Shown here: positions 2,298-64,000 of the stretch, piece by piece
Layout: every line of letters starts with the position of its first letter
Numbering within the stretch: position 1 is the first letter of the stretch
Assembly (NCBI GenBank): GCA_028753945.1
Contig: JAPNXP010000009.1
Coordinates: 3,596,001-3,660,000, forward strand
Reading direction: 5' to 3'
DNA length: 64,000 bases
Source of the DNA: Hexactinellida sp. DTS-2022
Taxonomy: Eukaryota; Porifera; Hexactinellida
Notes under the pieces: model-generated
What the model was told of the DNA's origin: nothing
Database searches by the model: none
What the model saw: only the letters and a program-made list of their open reading frames with translations
Made by a program: the position numbers and the translations under genes

Positions 2298-4063
2298 CAG
2301 GGCCCGTATTCACTAAGATTACTTAGTACTTAAGTACTAAGTATATACTTAAGTACTAAGTACGTACTTAGTTAAGTACATACTTAAGTCGTATTCACTA
2401 AAAAATATTGTTGTACTTAAGTACATACTTAACTAAGTACGCGCACAGTGGGCAAACCAGGGGAAATAGAGTTATTTGTTAACACCCTTGGATTACGAAC
2501 TTTTTTATTTTTTCAGATTCACCATTGTTTCAAACCTAGAAATACTAATTTTCGAAGTCATATACTAGCGGGGTAACGAATAATATGAATTGGAATGACT
2601 GATCTAAATATATTTTCTATCAATAATTCTGTTGTGATATTACGATCGTAATCAAACTTGTACGATTTCTACCCATATGATGATTCATACTATCAATATG
2701 TAATTTATATCAAGACTCAAGACTGTAACTTCTTGATGTCATTGCTATAAATACAATTTCATTGTGGAATTGAAGCTAAATTTACAATATCTTATGGAAG
2801 TATTTATGGATTTAGGACGGAAATTTATATGCCATTTTGGTTCAAAAACATTAGGTGCTCGGTCGTGGTCACATATTCTAATGCTTTTAAATGTTACATA
2901 GACATATTAGCAAAACATTTATATTAGTTTTGCATCCGCCCAAACCCGCCCCGGAATGATTTTTTTCAATTTACCATTGTCCCCTCAGAAAATTCATATA
3001 ATGTAAATTGAATTTGTCCACTAATTATCCAATTAATTTAGTTTTTTTCTTCCATTATCTGATAGTGATAATGAATAACAAAGCAGTTTATGATATATTA
3101 AAGTCAAATCTCTCAATCAGCATACCAAGTTAGAAATTCATCCATGCTTTTGAATTTCAGTAAATAATTTTATGAGATCCGGAAGAAATTTAGGAGCTAG
3201 CAATGTTCCATATTATACAACTATGCTACCTAAAACTATCTAGGGTTTCCTAAGAGTAATTGCACCTGCGATAGTTACACTCAGCATCCATCTACCTGAG
3301 ATATAGAATACCTAGGGATAAGACTAAGATTTCAATTATTTTACCCAAGTTTAAGATGTATTATCAATAATCATGGGTGATTAATATATGATTGTTACAG
3401 AGCCAAAAATTTAATAAATCATGAATTTACCATTGATCGTCCAAAACTACTGTTAGGAGACTACATATATCATTTTTGATATTGCCATTCGGTTTGCAGC
3501 TACCGATAACCTATATGTCAATAATACTTCATTAGAGTCTATCTAGCATAGTTTTCCTACTCCCCCTTACACCCTTGAAAATGCCCACTGTGGTACGTAC
3601 TTAAGTACGAAATTTAATTATATTTATTAAATTTTATTTAATAGCATAGCATATTAGTGTATGGAATGCTATTGTAATAGCTTGTTGTATTCTTTTAACT
3701 TTAAAAAGAATATTCTCAATGAAGTTCCTGTGATTTGAGTGCTTGAGAAAAACAGAACTTTTAGAAAATAACAACCAATAGTAATAAATGTTGAAAATAG
3801 AATCATAAACTTCCCCTAAAGTAAAGCAAGTGCTACTAGAAATCTATTACAATGTTCTAATTAAACACGAACGTTAAAGAGTCGATAAAAGTAATTCTTA
3901 TAAGTTAAGTTAACTTAGTATGTTACTTAAGTTTTGTACTTAAGTATGTACTTAAGTACACACTTAAATCTTAGTGAATACCAATCTTAGTGAATACGAC
4001 TTAGTACATACTAGTACTTAAGTACTAAGTACGTACTTAACTTCTTAGTGAATACGGGCCCAG
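2298..4063. mobile_element. non-autonomous DNA transposon with nested AAGTACTTAAGTAC termini
   Basis: The ends CAGGGCCCGTATTCACTAAG and CTGGGCCCGTATTCACTAAG (other strand) are inverted repeats. They are followed by many palindromic ACTTAAGTACTAAGTAC subterminal repeats (2320-2440 and 3900-4045). A second copy of the TATTCACTAA motif occurs at the inner edge of each end. The interior 2450-3600 has no coding potential. It interrupts the left arm of the large foldback element. The uninterrupted right arm reads cttcagg at this point, and AGG is present on both sides, so a 3-bp duplication is possible. A related single end lies near 11333. Confidence 0.75.
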
Positions 4064-14374: not shown

Positions 14375-14779
14375 GTGTCATTCAATATCTCTTTCAAAGT
14401 CCGAAAAATTCCAAGAATGGCTTGCTCTATATCTACAAAAGATCCTACATTAATGTCAACGAAAACAGACGTTTTAGCTTGGGTAAAGAGAGAGGAATAT
14501 TCCACTGTGGAGACATCCTCTAAAGCTCCATGCTGGGTATTATTACGCCTAATCCATATCCCTGATTATCTTGTCGAATGTCAGTTGGTCATGGACAACA
14601 AACGAATAGTAGTTGGATATGCAATCTGCATTGCATGTAGTGAAATATTCGCGACCAAGATAACGAAAGAAAACAAATTGATGGCATCGGGAACAACTCC
14701 ACTAAACCACCATGTAGAAAGATGTGTCAAGACTCAAGGTTCAAAGTTGAACGATGCCCGCCTGAATTTCCAAAATTAG
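14375..14779 (+). CDS. hAT transposase N-terminal part with BED zinc finger (frameshifted)
   Basis: A 134-codon frame contains YAICIACSEIF followed by GTTPLNHHVERC. This is the C-x2-C ... H-x3-C layout of a BED-type finger, which hAT transposases use to bind their own ends. It overlaps the next frame (from 14722) by 58 bases; the two read as one protein if a one-base frameshift lies near 14730. Start codon choice is uncertain: methionines occur at codon 1 and again at MACSIST (codon 15). Confidence 0.75.
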   Translation: MSFNISFKVRKIPRMACSISTKDPTLMSTKTDVLAWVKREEYSTVETSSKAPCWVLLRLIHIPDYLVECQLVMDNKRIVVGYAICIACSEIFATKITKENKLMASGTTPLNHHVERCVKTQGSKLNDARLNFQN

Positions 14780-16295
14780 ATGTTAAAATTAGTAAGGAGG
14801 ACCAAATTTTAATCAAAGAAAGTCAGAGTGCACTAGTTTCAGGTGGAATTTTGCCTCTTAGTTTATGCGACAAGGAGGTATTTCGAAATTTTTCCCAAGT
14901 AATGTTACAAATTGGATCTAAGTATAAAAACCCCGAAGCAAGTAAAGTCCTCTTTGGTAAAACAGCTGTTAGAGAAAATATCCTCTTAAAACTTGAACGC
15001 TGTAAAAGCCTCATTAAAGAAGCAGTTCGATGTGCTAGAGATTCCTTCTCAGTTGTAACTGATATGACAACAGATCAAGTGACCCAAAGATCATGGACCG
15101 ATCTCACCTTCATCTGGGTAGAAAATTTCAAAATCCGACGAGGACAACACGCATGCAGACACTGGGAGGGAGGGCGACATACAGCAGAAAACATTAGATC
15201 TTTTATAAATGAAGAATTCGAAAATATTGGCATTGATGACATTTCGCAAGTGCAAATAGTTACCGATTCAGGCAGAAATATTGTCGCTGCCGTGTATGAC
15301 ATGCGCAGTAATCGCTGTGCGGCTCACAGACTCCATACAGTCCTAAGTGATGCATGGGAATATGCAAAAGAACACAACAACGAAATCCTAAATCTGGATC
15401 TCTTCTGCCGCAAGCTTGTAACATTTGTAAAAGCATCCAGCAACATACAGGAACACCTTCCAACGCGATTGAAACACGGGGGTAAGACACGGCCTTGGCG
15501 TTCACTATACCAAATGTTTCATTCAATATACATCTCATATGATGCTCTAGGAGTGGTTTTGCATCAGAAGCGTGAATTGGTTAGGTTGCAATCGATTTAT
15601 AAACATTTACTGAACGAGGTTTTGAATTTGTTACAGATAATGTGTCCATTATGGGACAAACTAGAGACAGGTGACAAGCCCTCACTACAAAATTGCCTTG
15701 TAGTAGGGCATATTTTGATGAGGAAATTTTCACGAAGAACACAAGGACAAGGGGAGATTGTACACCCAGGAATTGAACTATTCAAATCCAATTTCATCGC
15801 AGTGTTGGACACTAAATTCTTTAGATCATTGAACTTCACACATTCTATAGCGATTTTACTTGGCATCACATTGAGGGATTTCACTTTCCTCGAAGATGAG
15901 ACAAATCGACGCAAACAAGTAGCGCAAACGGAAGGTAAGCTGTATTTGAATTACGTTTATTAATTATATTTTTGCATTCATTTTCATATTGCATAAATAG
16001 ACGATCTCGTAAATGTTGCCTGCGAATATGTCTACAAACATGCTGTTGATCTGATACATCCCAAACAGACCAGACTACCCAAGATTGTACAGTGGATAAA
16101 GACATCAACCCTTCCCCTCTTAAGAGATACTGCCCTGAAGACCCTTTTTCTGAGTTTAGAAGTTATGAAGTTCGGAGTGAGAACACCCAACTTCTGCTAG
16201 ATAACCCTGATGAGTTAGTTCGAAAAGAAATTGCTAAATACAGAGAGATGGCAAGCAGTGCTCGACAAAATGAAATTTTGATGGTGGCTAATTAA
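14722..16295 (+). pseudogene. hAT transposase catalytic core
   Basis: A 413-codon frame from 14722 holds SVVTDMTTDQV (first catalytic Asp, residue ~114), SWTDLTFIWVE, and IVTDSGRNIVAA (second Asp, residue ~182). CAAHRLHTVL follows near residue 200, as in hAT transposases. The frame ends at 15963, but a likely GT-AG intron (gtaagc at 15934 to an ag before 16002) leads into DLVNVACEYVYKHAV. A further frameshift near 16120 links to KRYCPEDPFSEF and EIAKYREMAS, stopping where the MITE at 16256 enters. The open length of the core suggests that inactivation was fairly recent. Confidence 0.85.
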
Positions 16296-21010: not shown

Positions 21011-21769
21011 TCCGCCCAGTCATCAGCGCCTCAAGGTGTCAAGAACCATTTGTTAATTGGTCCGAGTCACAAGGAACGGTAGATAAATTTGAAGTTTGTT
21101 TCTACCATAAACCATCTTGAGTTTAATGCCATTCATTCATTATGTATTGATAATAAATTATATTATTAGTTATTTATTTAGCAATGTTATCCACGGTTGA
21201 GTTGAATTAAGTCAACAAATTCCTTATTTAATTTAATTTGTTTTAATTCATTAAATAGTAATACTACAATTAAAAAGAAGCCAGCTGCAATTTATAAGTT
21301 AAATCAATTTAAATATCTCAAGTTGAAACAATAGAGTAGGATTTAACAAGTTAAATCAATATAATTATTACAAGTTGAAACAATGGAATTAGATTTCACA
21401 GTTTTACTAAAATTGAAGTGTGAGTAAACAAAGAAATTTCAACCCCCATTTATGGCAGAAATTAAACCCTTTATTGAAAATTTCTTCTCCCATCAGACGC
21501 AGAATTTTATGGTGAATCCCAATGTGAAATAAAATTTGGGGGTTTAGTAAAAACATCACAGTGGCTTCAAATTACATTTTAGTGGAAATAGGCATTTTGG
21601 TAGCAGACAACTACTCATGAAGTATTAATTACATATAGGTTATAGATAGCTGCAAATTGAATGGCATCATTAAAAATGATGTATCTAGTCTAATAAATGG
21701 AATTCCGGAGATTCACATACAATTTCATCAAATATTCTATTTTGGTTTGTTAACCGTACACTGCCTAAC
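21011..21769. repeat. interspersed repeat remnant, then plain AT-rich DNA
   Basis: Bases 21030-21170 match 17890-17975 and the inverted 48150-48300 (tttgaagtttgtttct, gccattcattcattatg). Bases 21300-21450 match 6740-6870 and the inverted 52440-52600. Nothing was recognised at 21480-21769. Confidence 0.6.
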
Positions 21770-24096: not shown

Positions 24097-25629
24097 AATG
24101 CGAGTCATCCCTCTATCGAGCGAGACGAAAGTTACAACCGAAAATTCCGCTTTCTGCTCCCGAGTTTGTTGCTATGCTGCCAACAACAACATTGGGGAAA
24201 TACTACAAGTATAGCGTGACGAGAAGTGAGCAAACAGGTGTAATCTTTTATTCAGAGCAGATGCAGACATTTTTGGATGAAGTGACCAATATTCAATTTG
24301 ATGGTACATTCTTTACCGTTCCAACTCAATTCTCTCAGCTCTGGACCATATTTGTATCTGTGGGAAGACATACTCTGCCAGCTGTTCATTGTTTAATGAC
24401 ATCAAAGAGCCAGGAGCTATATCAAGCAGTATTGGAGAGTATTTGTACTAATATTCCTCAATTCCGGCCATTAGCGAGTATGTCAGATTGGGAACCAGCA
24501 GCAAGAAATGCTTTTAAGTTGGTGTTCCCTCAAGCGAGAATTTACGGATGCTGGTTTCACTACACCCAGAGAATTTGGGCTAATTCACAACAATTTGGAC
24601 TTATACAAAGTTTTGGAGATAATCCAGAAGTAAAAGCTTACATAAAACAACTAATGGCAATCCCGTTTTTGCCAGCTCCCCTAATTATTCCCACTTTCAA
24701 TTTCCTTCTAATGCCAGTTATACAAAATACTGAAAAATTAAAGCTCGAAAAACTAAAAAATTATTTCAAAAAACGTTGGATAAATCAAATAACTCCTGAA
24801 GAACTTTCTATTTATGAAATCAGCATCGCTACAAATAATGGAGCAGAAAGCTATCATTCTAAACTCAAATCAATAGTAAGAACTAACCATCCAAGGATAT
24901 GGACGTTTATGGAAACTCTGATGAAATAATACAGGATACAGACAATGATATAGGACGTTTACGCATAGGCAGATAAATCAGTAGACCACGAAAAAAACAG
25001 GATATTAATAATGAGGAACGTAGGAATACTTGCAAACAGAAGTTGTCTTGTGGAGATTACAAGCCAATGGAATTCTTGAAAGCGATTAGCTATACAATTG
25101 GCAACATTAAATCGCAAGAATTTATTTCTTCAAGTGAATCAGAATATTCCGACGAAGAAAATGTTGAGCCAACTGGAGAAAATAATAAATGTATTATTTG
25201 TCTTGCGCCTCGTACAGAAACATGGATCTCCATGCCCTATAGACATGCCAATTGCTGTACAGAATGTAGCCACACAATTGAGGAGCTAGGACACCCTTGT
25301 CCTGTGTGCCGTACTATAATCGAAAGCCGCTTTCAAATATTTACTAGTTGACAACATTTAATTATGTTATGATCTTTCCAGATTTATATTTATTACATCT
25401 TGATTTATATTTATTATATCTTCATTTATCCTTGCATTACGTTCTTCCAGATATATCATTAAAGCTATCGTTTATCTTTACTAATCTAATAGTTAAATAT
25501 TTAATGAAATATAATATCCCGAATGTTTAATCATAAAAATATTGTGTGATTAGTATCAAGAAATAACTGTTGAAAATTGAAATTACATGTATTCTAAATT
25601 TTTAACTTGAGACAGTAACCTGAAAAACC

Positions 25630-42856: not shown

Positions 42857-43451
42857 ACCATATATATCAGAATATTCAAAAGAGAAGTCATTCTCAAGAA
42901 CAGTAATCTCAAAATCTGCATTGAAGCATTGGTAACTTTCTATAACCGCAAAATAGAAATTCCAATTGTCAAAAATCTAATACTTTGAATAGTCATAACA
43001 ACCAAAATATTTCTTAGATCAGAATGAAAGGTTATTTGATATTCTGAATTCAGTGGTAACCACGAATTCAAGTTTCAAGAGAATAATAATTTTACCCTAT
43101 TTCCCCCTAAATTCCCACTGTGCTCAAGTTTTTCAAAATAATTCCAATTCTATCAAGTTTTTGTCAATAAATTCCAAATCTACTCAACTTTTCGATTAAT
43201 TCACAGATCTACTCAATTATAGAAAGGCTATATTTGGTCTATCTCATAGAATATTAAATCAAAATGTTTTTGTGTTTGTTTGTTCAGAATTGATGGAGGA
43301 ATTGGTAAAAGCTATATACTTGAAATTTTGCAGGGGGGTAGGGAATACTGTATGTACCAACAAGTTCTAATATCTAAAAAATATTCACATCTACCATTAC
43401 AAAGTTGTCAAAACATTGAGCCAAGTAAATTCGAGGGTTGTTCCTGTATGG
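42857..43451. other. no recognisable gene
   Basis: A short frame near 43282 (RIDGGIGKSYILEILQGG) is not assignable. The rest is AT-rich. Confidence 0.5.
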
Positions 43452-58600: not shown

Positions 58601-58751
58601 TTTATTTATAGAACAGTTAATAATTTTTCAGTGTATTTATTCCTGCTAATACGTTTAGCTTTGGTGGTGCAATTAGCCCTCTCCTTGTTTCCAAATCTTG
58701 AATTAATCTCTGTAACTCGGTGTCATTGTCTGATATTATGTTATCTAAGTA

Positions 58752-58945
58752 CAGTCGAAATCGGATTATTTTGTCCAATTCTTTGCATGGATAATTCGAC
58801 AAAATAATCCGATAAGACAAATAAACCCGATAATTCGTAATGGTAAATCAAATTTTCCTCGAATATTAGGACAAAATAATCCGATAAGACAAAATAATCC
58901 GATAAGACAAAATAATCCGATGACAAAATAATCCGATTTCGACTG
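58752..58945. mobile_element. pogo/Tigger-type MITE in a TA site (CAGTCGAAATCGGATT)
   Basis: Perfect inverted ends CAGTCGAAATCGGATTATTT, TA at 58750-58751 and 58946-58947, repeated acaaaataatccgataag inside. It interrupts the MULE-3 transposase. Confidence 0.96.
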
Positions 58946-60075
58946 TATGCTATAAACTTCCAGACATTAGGATGAGGCGTTTTAATAATCGATTTTAAAG
59001 TTTTATGATACGATTCTGCTCCGTTATTAGTTGCATCTTGATAAATAAACACTGATATATGCTCGTATGCAATTAACCATGTACGATGGAAATACTTCCG
59101 AAACTTTGAAATCAACTCTCTTTCAGCTTCATTTATACCAATTGATGGTATCTCTAAAGAATAATAAACAGATGCAATTTCCTCTTCTGGAAGGAAAGGC
59201 AAAGCCATTATTTTGCGGATCCACATTGAAAAGTCATGATTTCGCATGTACAATTTAGATAGACCAAGCTTCTGGACATTTTCATAAATTGCTTTAGTAA
59301 AATGAAACCAACATCCAATTATGGTTATTGAAGGAAAAACTGCTGTCATTGCATTCCTTGGTGCTTGCTCAAAATCTCCCTTTGCGAATGTTGGATTTAA
59401 TTCAGGTATCAATCGCCGAATAGTTAGCAATACAGCCGTGTAAAGTCTTGCAGTTTTTCTAGTCATCAAAACATGCAAAGCCGGAAGAGTATGACCTCTA
59501 ACATTAATAAAAATTGTAAATAGCTGGAAAATAGTCTCGGAACAACTTTGAATGTTGCATCAAACTGAATAGTTGATGAATTACTTAGATTATTCATCAT
59601 CGTACTTGATCCCCAAATAACTGCTACTCCATCCATAGTAATTACCGTTTTCAAATGATTTGTGAAACTAAGTGATCCTTGCAAGAGGGAATCGAATTCT
59701 AAAGCAGAGGAGGGCATATTGGGATGCAAAACCTTCTCCTCTTGAACATACTGCTCTCTAAAGATTTGAAAGTAACTGAAGACGCTTCATTTAGTCCTCG
59801 GCAGGTATCATTAAATACTTCTCGGAGATTAGCTGATGATACTTCAGCTTTCCTTTTAATAGTATTGCTAACGATAATCTTTTCAGATCTGTGCATCGCA
59901 GCATCGTGGTTATGTTGGGCGTTTAATTCGAGAAGATTTGCTGTTTGTCAATTTTGCAGTGCAAGCACAAGAGTTGCTTCGAAATAATGCACACTTGGTG
60001 TAAATGGAATTGCCGTATTCTCCGGACTTTACATAGCGAAAACCTCGACATTCGTAACTGATACAATTATTGAAT

Positions 60076-61400: not shown

Positions 61401-62372
61401 TATTTCGTGACACACCCCATATTAGTTAGTGTTTGGTAAGAAACAAATACCACAAGAAATCATAATAGCTAATATTCAATAATCAACAAACACATATCGG
61501 TTTTCAATATTTAGGACAAATTCCCAATTTTGATATTTAGGACAAATTCCAATTATATTTAGGACAAATTCAGGTTTCCCCTTGAGGTGGGTTGACAAGG
61601 AATACGAGGTTCAAGAGAAGTGGATGGCATTCATTGCGCTGGACAAAAGCGATGCTGAGATTATATATACAATGATCAAGCAGTCTTTGCTGGCGTACGG
61701 CCTAACTTTTGAGAACTGTCGTGGCCAAGCGAGCGATGGAGCGAGTGTCAAGCGCGGAAGAAAGAATGGAGTGTCTACAAGGATCCTTAGGGACTACCCC
61801 TTTTCCATCTATAGTTACTGCAGCGGCCATGGTCCATCACTCATTTGCCAAGACGCCGTTTCGAGCCACCCTGACCTGAAGAAGACCCAATAATATATTA
61901 GGGATATCGTGGCCTATATTCAGTACTCTCTCCGACGCAGGGGCGAGTTCAAGGCTCTTGTGCTTGACCAGGGTGAAGTGGAGATACTGCTAGCTGAAGA
62001 GGAAGGACGTCCAGCCGTTCCTCAGCCAAAGGCAAACCTCAGACCCATATGTGTTACTCGCTGGGTCCTAAGGGCTCTGGCCATGGACTCTTTCTGTGCC
62101 AGTTACTCGAAAATTCTGGATTACATGTCGAGATTGAAGGCGGTACCGTGAATGGTACCTCCTCTAAGAATAAGGACGTTGCTGTGGGCTACGTGAAAAC
62201 TCTTCATAAGTTCAAGACATATTTCTGCGCGAGGCTGTTACAACGTCTCTACAATATCGTTGGTCCCGTAAACGCAGAAATTCAAGGTCGTAAATGTTCG
62301 GTAGGTGGCGTGCGCGACAAGATCATGAAACTTATGGGCGCGCGCGCACAGTGGGGCAACATGGCTGAATAA

Positions 62373-63103
62373 ACAATTTTTTTACCATTTTAAATTGTTA
62401 AATGATTGCGATATTCGAAATCAGAACTATTGAAAACCTAGGAATCCGAAATTTAATTAATCTAACACCAGTGGTTATGAAATAGTTGGTGGTTGAAAGG
62501 ATGGTTTCTATTTTTGTATCTAAAATATTCAACATATTTTTATTATATTAGTGACATTTACGTCATCCTCATATGAAAACTACGAATCATACGTATTGGA
62601 ATGTTGTTTGTGAGTGATCTACTATCTACTTGTTGCATTTATAAAAACATTTTGAATTATTCCGTTGAAAATTATAAACTCATCAGAATTCGTAAAGCTT
62701 GTTTCACTAATACATTACAAACGGTGACACTACACTTTTAACTGTCGAAACTTATACTGATCACTGCTGATCAAAGAAGTTGGTGATATGTGAAGCCAAA
62801 TATTGATATATATTTAAATTTAGTAATAATTTCAGGGTGACCAAAGATGACCAAAATATCCTTTTGGTCTCCAGTTTACGCTAAAATAGTCCCCTAATGC
62901 ATTGTAGTAAAAATGTAAATTTATTACCAATCAATATTGTAGATGTAATATTTATTTGAACTTTCTGAGATATCAAACAAGAGATATGGAATGCAATTAA
63001 TTTGTTTCATAGAGATATTAGTGACTTAAAACAATGTAGTAATATTGGTCATAAATAATATAATATGCAAGAAATTTTCAAAAGTCTAATCATTTAATCT
63101 AAA
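62373..63103. other. AT-rich spacer, no feature found
   Basis: Stops in all frames. It may hold the 5' untranslated part or an intron of the following gene. I found no terminal inverted repeat or heptamer/nonamer-like signal that I could defend. Confidence 0.5.
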
Positions 63104-64000
63104 ATGAACAATCAAGAAGTAAGAAATATTCTCCAAAAGGCGGAAAATAACTGTCGTAAAGCAACCAGCGAGATGCTGGTCCTATTTGATTTACCAGAAT
63201 CTCAATTTTCAATGATGAATTTGAAATTTCAGGAATTAACCACTATCCGTAGAGAGTTTGTCCGACATAATGATCTGGATAATTGGGAAATTTTGCCTTT
63301 CTATGAACATGGGGCATGTAAACCTTCAGGAAAGATGAGATCTGATGGAACAGATAAACTGACTGATACAATTTCATTTGTTGAACCTCTCTCTAATACA
63401 AACAGGAAATCTATTTCAGCAGTTACTCTGCAAACAATAAGAACACGGCTTATGGTACTACTCGATCATATCACTTTTCTCGCTGAGAGAGAAAATACTG
63501 ACTCCAGAACAATTGCAGCTTTAGCAATCCAGTGTATCAGCAATGATAATTATGACAGAGATGCAGCCAAATTATGTCCCGATGTTGCTGCGAGAACTGC
63601 ACCCAATCAAGTTAACAAGTTCCCATTAGAAAAAGCCTCCTTTATGTTAGATCTCTTGGAAATTGGGAAAAGGAAATACATTGACCTCCGTCGTATCTGC
63701 AAGTCAGAAGATATTCATTTTCCTGGTTACAAGAAGATTGTAGCATACCGAAATGAAATTTGTTCAGCACAGGAAATCTCTGTCTTAAATAATGAACAAG
63801 GAAATTCCATAGGAGTGAATATTCCATACTCTACTTTAGTACATAAAACAACAGAAAGAATAGTACAGTTGATTCCTTCTTGCATAGAATCTCATTACCC
63901 TTTAACTCTCACGATAGCTGATGGTTTCGATGGCTCAGGGAGTCATCGACTTTACAACCAGTTTCCTACAAACCCAAGCCTCTCAACGAAATCTCTCATA
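63104..64000 (+). CDS. RAG1/Transib-superfamily recombinase, N-terminal part (runs off the window)
   Basis: An uninterrupted frame of 299 codons from ATG at 63104 to the last base, with no stop. An in-frame TAA lies two codons upstream, so this start is the earliest. The protein begins MNNQEVRNILQKAENNC. Residues ~178-215 read EKASFMLDLLEIGKRKYIDL, then HFPGYKKIVAYRNEIC. This resembles the RAG1/Transib segment in which a leucine-rich helix and K/R-x-Y-x-x-(I/L)R precede a (F/Y)P.Y.K(I/V) motif. Residues 273-284 read DGFDGSGSHRLYNQ; DGSxxHxxYKQ-type sequence around the first catalytic Asp is typical of Transib and corresponds to DGMGD in RAG1, so D276 is the likely catalytic residue. The remaining Asp and Glu would lie beyond the window. 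Whether it is a transposon or a host gene, and whether a RAG2-like partner exists, cannot be seen here. Family assignment is from memory of motifs. Confidence 0.65.
   Translation, partial: MNNQEVRNILQKAENNCRKATSEMLVLFDLPESQFSMMNLKFQELTTIRREFVRHNDLDNWEILPFYEHGACKPSGKMRSDGTDKLTDTISFVEPLSNTNRKSISAVTLQTIRTRLMVLLDHITFLAERENTDSRTIAALAIQCISNDNYDRDAAKLCPDVAARTAPNQVNKFPLEKASFMLDLLEIGKRKYIDLRRICKSEDIHFPGYKKIVAYRNEICSAQEISVLNNEQGNSIGVNIPYSTLVHKTTERIVQLIPSCIESHYPLTLTIADGFDGSGSHRLYNQFPTNPSLSTKSLI

Follow-up and report, generated by a model that had tools for sequence, protein, structure and literature searches.

A decayed Transib copy inside a hAT-like transposon of a hexactinellid sponge and its relatives with asymmetric ends

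Does the reading frame at the right-hand edge of a 64,000-nucleotide stretch of the genome of Hexactinellida sp. DTS-2022 (contig JAPNXP010000009.1, positions 3,596,001 to 3,660,000; hereafter the window) belong to a RAG1-like gene or to a transposon? The frame starts with ATG, occupies positions 63104-64000 and reaches the end of the window after 299 codons. It contains the motifs DGFDGSGSH and FPGYKK, which the initial annotation had correctly located and had read as signs of a RAG1/Transib-type DDE recombinase. Copies elsewhere in the genome match the frame at 95-96% identity, and it is therefore more than a chance open stretch. The frame on its own, with which a profile search had been suggested, has no Pfam match and no significant match in the PDB. 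Its link to Transib and RAG1 therefore goes through its relatives in the genome. A structure predicted by AlphaFold for the 299 residues without relatives has a mean pLDDT of 33 and is unusable.

The relatives place the family among the Transib/RAG1-type DDE enzymes. In phmmer searches, the 712-residue relative L025 matches HzTransib of Helicoverpa zea (6pqn) in two stretches with an E-value of 2.8e-25, amphioxus RAG1L (6b40) with 1.3e-7, and mouse RAG1 (4wwx) with 3e-6. Among the solved structures compared, to which this ranking applies, L025 is nearest to HzTransib, by far ahead of RAG1L and RAG1. An eight-member profile of the family matches HzTransib with an E-value of 6.3e-35. The D-D-E residues, the CxxC and the HxxxxH of L025 all align with RAG1: the second aspartate of DGLDGSG, the aspartate of LDGKMS and the last glutamate of SEEAIE fall on positions 210, 318 and 572 of 4wwx_B. 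With an offset of 390, we take these to be D600, D708 and E962 of RAG1, and the CxxC and HxxxxH presumably fall on the RAG1 zinc ligands. The family is thus homologous to these enzymes, with its catalytic and zinc-binding residues aligned. The proposal that the DGSG aspartate is the first catalytic one holds through the alignment of L025, in which the expected second aspartate, the glutamate and the zinc-binding residues are also found. Outside the sponge, 87 stretches from bacterial and archaeal genomes and 98 from viral contigs fit the peptide pattern, and none was confirmed.

The window copy itself is broken. The frame had been called intact, an impression that arose because it met the window edge. 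When the contig is extended to the right (locus L001), the codon directly past the edge is TAA (L001:1501-1503). Homology continues beyond it in the first frame to approximately L001 1851, passes into a shifted frame, regains the first frame at approximately L001 2335-2529, and then shifts again. The three catalytic motifs lie in one frame, with the stop codon and the shifted stretch between them. The element to which the frame belongs is an ordinary relic of a Transib. Its parts within the window, and the sequence next to it, are as follows.

62147..62335, forward strand: left flank, part of the hAT-like transposon entered by the Transib (from matches to the joined flanks)
62336..62340, forward strand: left 5-bp duplication, GGGCG (from uninterrupted paralogues)
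62341..62346, forward strand: six additional bases, CGCGCG, which separate the duplication from the element end (missing in paralogues)
62347..64000, forward strand: the part of the Transib inside the window (from paired ends and comparison of copies)
62347..62373, forward strand: left terminal inverted repeat, CACAGTG, 13 bp and the box GAATAAA (paired with the right end)
63104..64000, forward strand: first 299 codons of the transposase (from the frame, the contig extension and relatives)
63389..63526, forward strand: candidate stretch similar to the RAG1 nonamer-binding domain, residues approximately 96-141 (from profile A3)
63929..63931, forward strand: codon of the first catalytic aspartate, Asp276 in DGFDGSGSH (aligned via L025 to Asp210 of 4wwx_B)

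The complete copy is 3,139 bp long. It begins with CACAGTGGGGCAACATGGC at 62347, runs 1,485 bp past the window, and closes with the inverted equivalent at L001 2985. Both ends begin with CACAGTG, which is the heptamer of the recombination signal sequence (RSS). The second copy of the GGGCG duplication lies at L001 2986-2990, and the right flank of the hAT-like transposon starts at L001 2991, with a hAT dimerisation domain at L001 3288-3833. The two flanks, when joined, match four uninterrupted paralogues at 84-94%. At the junction three of these read TTATGGGCGTATTGG, which establishes the duplication as GGGCG on both sides; the junction of the paralogue L060 reads TTATGGGCG and agrees with it. 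An imperfect duplication with four of five letters in common (GCGCG and GGGCG) was considered for this copy and is ruled out by the empty sites, against which the duplication is exact. The three paralogues examined at the junction lack CGCGCG, and the six bases probably originated as a later slip of a (CG)n run. Identity of the window copy is 94.2% with the copy L004 and 94.6% with L006. It is almost certain that the window ends within a dead Transib copy, approximately 5% diverged, which entered a hAT-like transposon and duplicated GGGCG.

The inverted repeats starting with CAC and the 5-bp duplications that the initial annotation advised looking for are both present in the family. Both ends were located in 11 of the 14 copies examined; L003, L005 and L016 have no paired ends. 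An exact adjoining 5-bp duplication is present in eight of the 11 two-ended copies, and L006 and L019 are without a matching one. Inside the ends, a box resembling RARTAGG was scored at each distance from the heptamer at both ends of the 11 two-ended copies. The optimum for the left box is 13 bp from the heptamer in all 11, tied with 12 bp in L017 and L018 and with 4 bp in L021; the box fits only five of seven letters in the window copy, where it reads GAATAAA, and in L004, L006, L017 and L018. The optimum for the right box is 22 bp from the heptamer in ten copies. The exception is L021, the right end of which has no box at this distance (two of seven letters). The 13/22 asymmetry therefore holds in 10 of 11 two-ended copies.

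The same asymmetry is seen in the genome at large. The motif CACAGTG-N(6-35)-AATAGGCA has 171 matches, and the reversed pattern has two. Among the first 100 matches in contig order, the gap is 23 in 75 matches, 14 in 13, 22 in five, 24 in three, 21 in two, and 25 and 7 in one each. These 100 matches include eight convergent pairs less than 8 kb apart, six of which are 14/23; whether the spacing is given as 13/22 or 14/23 depends on where the start of the box is placed. The remaining two pairs, 23/23 and 23/24, join ends unlike in sequence and are probably unrelated ends. Asymmetric Transib ends as such are already described in PMC8355894 and PMC9435367. The window contains three additional Transib-type ends, compared with 0.02 expected by chance. 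They are given below with other mobile-element features of the region.

3556-3592, reverse strand: Transib-type end with 23 bp between heptamer and box (motif search)
14722-15963, forward strand: 413-residue open frame, the longest in the window, without a Pfam match at E ≤ 0.01
21557-21592, forward strand: Transib-type end with 22 bp between heptamer and box (motif search)
24174-24929, forward strand: MULE transposase frame above the Pfam cut-off
43096-43122, reverse strand: Transib-type end with 13 bp between heptamer and box (motif search)
58741-59478, reverse strand: MULE transposase frame above the Pfam cut-off
L001 4773-8916, reverse strand: frames resembling a Gypsy-type retroelement (reading of translations)

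The frame at the window edge is not the only long one, as had been stated, since five others are at least 200 residues long. Three of these pass the Pfam cut-off, two as MULE and one as rve, another matches DUF4371 below the cut-off, and the 413-residue frame looks hAT-like by eye. The Gypsy-like frames downstream, also read by eye, include a gag-like zinc knuckle, a protease, reverse transcriptase/RNase H and an integrase. The GC content of the 4-kb blocks of the window ranges from 31 to 43%.

Genome-wide, the family is large and diverse. A first look gave 480 candidates; the scored matches to relatives number at least 131, and some copies account for more than one of these. Fifteen of the 131 matches lie in open frames of at least 700 codons, and 13 of these 15 have no stop codon inside the match. 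This number of open Transib copies is unusual when set against PMC4411706, which gives "one or at most a few". Thirty loci fall into 12 clusters at 70% identity of the N-terminal part. The copies L013 and L014 differ by one mismatch and three gap openings across 3,666 aligned positions, and their duplications differ from each other. Near-identical copies at two sites with different duplications indicate that the family of L013 and L014 moved recently.

Two further observations concern the genome as a whole. The ends of seven contigs were inspected as 14 segments of 1.5 kb (L032-L045), of which 13 are readable and one, L038, reads N. A single satellite, repeating every 211-212 bp or at multiples of that length, makes up nearly all of eleven readable segments; another repeat, with a period of 408 bp, covers L032 and L043. 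No doublets of TTAGGG, TTAGG or TTAGGC were found in the contig ends examined, and satellites may cap the chromosome ends instead of short telomere repeats. Homeodomain matches at E ≤ 0.001 number only 16 in a six-frame search of the genome, in which introns may hide some; this is low for a bilaterian. These matches, and homeodomain frames that we take to be Msx-like and NK-like, point to an animal genome.

The transposase of this family combines several parts that resemble those of RAG1. In the zinc-binding (ZnB) segment, 65-66 residues separate the second cysteine of the CxxC from the LHS motif in 19 of the 30 loci, those in which this distance is measurable; it is 64 in RAG1 and 30 in HzTransib. 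The α11-α12 region was lost by Subgroup II Transibs (Tao et al. 2022, PMC9435367). Because the ZnB segment has the length of that of RAG1 and aligns with it nearly without gaps, the α11-α12 region appears to have been kept here, as judged by length and alignment. Closer to the N-terminus, the stretch encoded by 63389..63526 shows a weak but specific resemblance to the nonamer-binding domain of RAG1. With profile A3, 13 of the 14 PDB sequences matched at E ≤ 1 are RAG1, each with an E-value of 0.11-0.30; the 13 are close kin and therefore not independent. The stretch is likewise covered where profile A2, which is longer, matches RAG1.

At the C-terminus, a zinc knuckle of the form Cx2Cx3GHx5C is present in 10 of the 30 loci, some of which stop before the tail. 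L023 has a degenerate form of it. The tails of L004, L006 and L011, which belong to the family of the window copy, lack it, as do those of L013, L014, L021, L028 and L030. A tree of 26 N-terminal stretches contains a split, supported at 99/99, between a clade without the knuckle, in which the window family sits, and a clade with it, in which L030 is the exception. Two changes of knuckle state are needed on this tree if L023 is counted as having the knuckle and seven unscored rows are set aside. The tree has several long branches, and the program flags the joining of L013 and L028 as possibly wrong. As the tree is unrooted, gain of the knuckle is indistinguishable from its loss.

Among described systems, the family resembles the Subgroup I Transibs with asymmetric ends of Tao et al. 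2022 (PMC9435367), with which it has in common the asymmetric ends, the segment of RAG1 length, the single gene and the 5-bp duplications. Their CTT1 zinc knuckle has a possible counterpart here in one of two clades; what differs is the presence of many clusters and open copies within one genome. The window copy is a decayed Transib, probably of the Subgroup I type as judged by described traits. HzTransib, which is the best sequence match, has a ZnB segment approximately 35 residues shorter, and its ends are described as symmetric in PMC8289069, whereas those of the sponge family are asymmetric. By our reading of the figure legend, HzTransib is the Hze listed among the examples of Subgroup II (PMC9435367). 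The AanRAGL transposon of Aureococcus (PMC9435367) also has bipartite asymmetric ends with a 9-bp offset (spacers of 4 and 13 bp) and 5-bp duplications; however, it carries RAG2L and other end motifs. Vertebrate RAG1 has in common with this family the D-D-E residues, the zinc ligands and the ZnB length, and the consensus heptamer of the vertebrate RSS, as given in PMC8289069, is identical to CACAGTG. The vertebrate spacing is 12/23 to ACAAAAACC, whereas here it is 13/22 to a RARTAGG-like box, with no RAG2 seen. Asymmetric Transib ends were known before, and the new interest of the family lies in its expansion and in the patchy distribution of the knuckle.

The RAG1-like parts raise the alternative that the sequences derive from a RAGL transposon encoding RAG1L and RAG2L or from a domesticated RAG1-like host gene. 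The ZnB segment of RAG1 length would fit this, as would the C-terminal CCHC knuckle of the relatives, which resembles that of RAG1L. The RAG1L knuckle is given as Cx2Cx3GHx4C (PMC7204232), one residue shorter than the one found here, which is absent from the clade of the window copy. Transib is by far the best match, and there are many copies with ends and duplications. A search for an adjoining kelch/RAG2-like frame, suggested by the initial annotation, found no second large frame in any of the three elements checked, in which the other frames of at least 80 residues are 95 and 97 residues long. The Pfam RAG2 profile gave no matches; its control was silent too, which makes this search weak and not a proof of absence. 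The Pfam RAG1 profile gave 68 matches, of which 67 cover it only from position 474 onward (best 32.4 bits) and one covers positions 12-83. Because these 67 matches are confined to the C-terminal part, no RAG1-type host gene is seen among them, although introns could hide one. We consider a RAGL transposon or host gene highly improbable. The class of enzyme put forward at the outset thus stands as Transib/RAG1-type DDE, but its source is a multicopy Transib and not a RAG1-like gene. Even less credence, next to none, is due to an origin in another DDE superfamily (CACTA, Chapaev, hAT or MULE) combined with chance resemblance. Relics of hAT, MULE and integrase sequences do surround the copy; however, RAG1, which exceeds the cut-off in two of five relatives, is the only Pfam family to do so in the five relatives and three pieces of the window copy, and the D-D-E residues, zinc ligands, CACAGTG and 5-bp duplications are consistent with Transib/RAG1. 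The alignments of L025 and their E-values in effect refute this origin.

What the asymmetry of the ends does is a separate matter. It is possible, if rather unlikely, that it is an inherited quirk of sequence with no role in the pairing of ends. The copies share ancestors, so their counts are not independent; L021 departs from 13/22, and the genome-wide tallies were set against the reversed pattern rather than a symmetric competitor. By contrast, 10 of the 11 two-ended copies keep the 9-bp offset unchanged, even though their clusters have 33-39% protein identity to the window frame and the letters of their spacers differ. Our own interpretation, which is tentative and may well prove wrong, is that the sponge genome contains a diversified and recently active radiation of Transibs that have kept a nonamer-binding-like stretch, a full ZnB segment and, in one clade, the CTT1 knuckle, and that pair their ends in a 12/23-like manner without RAG2. 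For the live relatives of the window copy, the mechanism to be expected from the family is that one RAG1-like transposase would bind a bipartite end consisting of CACAGTG and the RARTAGG-like box, and a short-spaced left end (13 bp) would have to pair with a long-spaced right end (22 bp). The D-D-E site would cut beside the heptamer by a nick and a hairpin, and insertion would occur with a 5-bp stagger.

If the radiation of Transibs with paired unlike ends is real, the rule of asymmetric ends would predate RAG2. The knuckle would not be the reader of the asymmetry, because clades with and without it both keep the asymmetry, and the domain resembling the nonamer-binding domain would remain a candidate for this role. 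Open copies, asymmetric ends and two types of tail together provide a natural comparison for identifying the part of the enzyme that imposes the pairing of unlike ends, a question that underlies the 12/23 rule.
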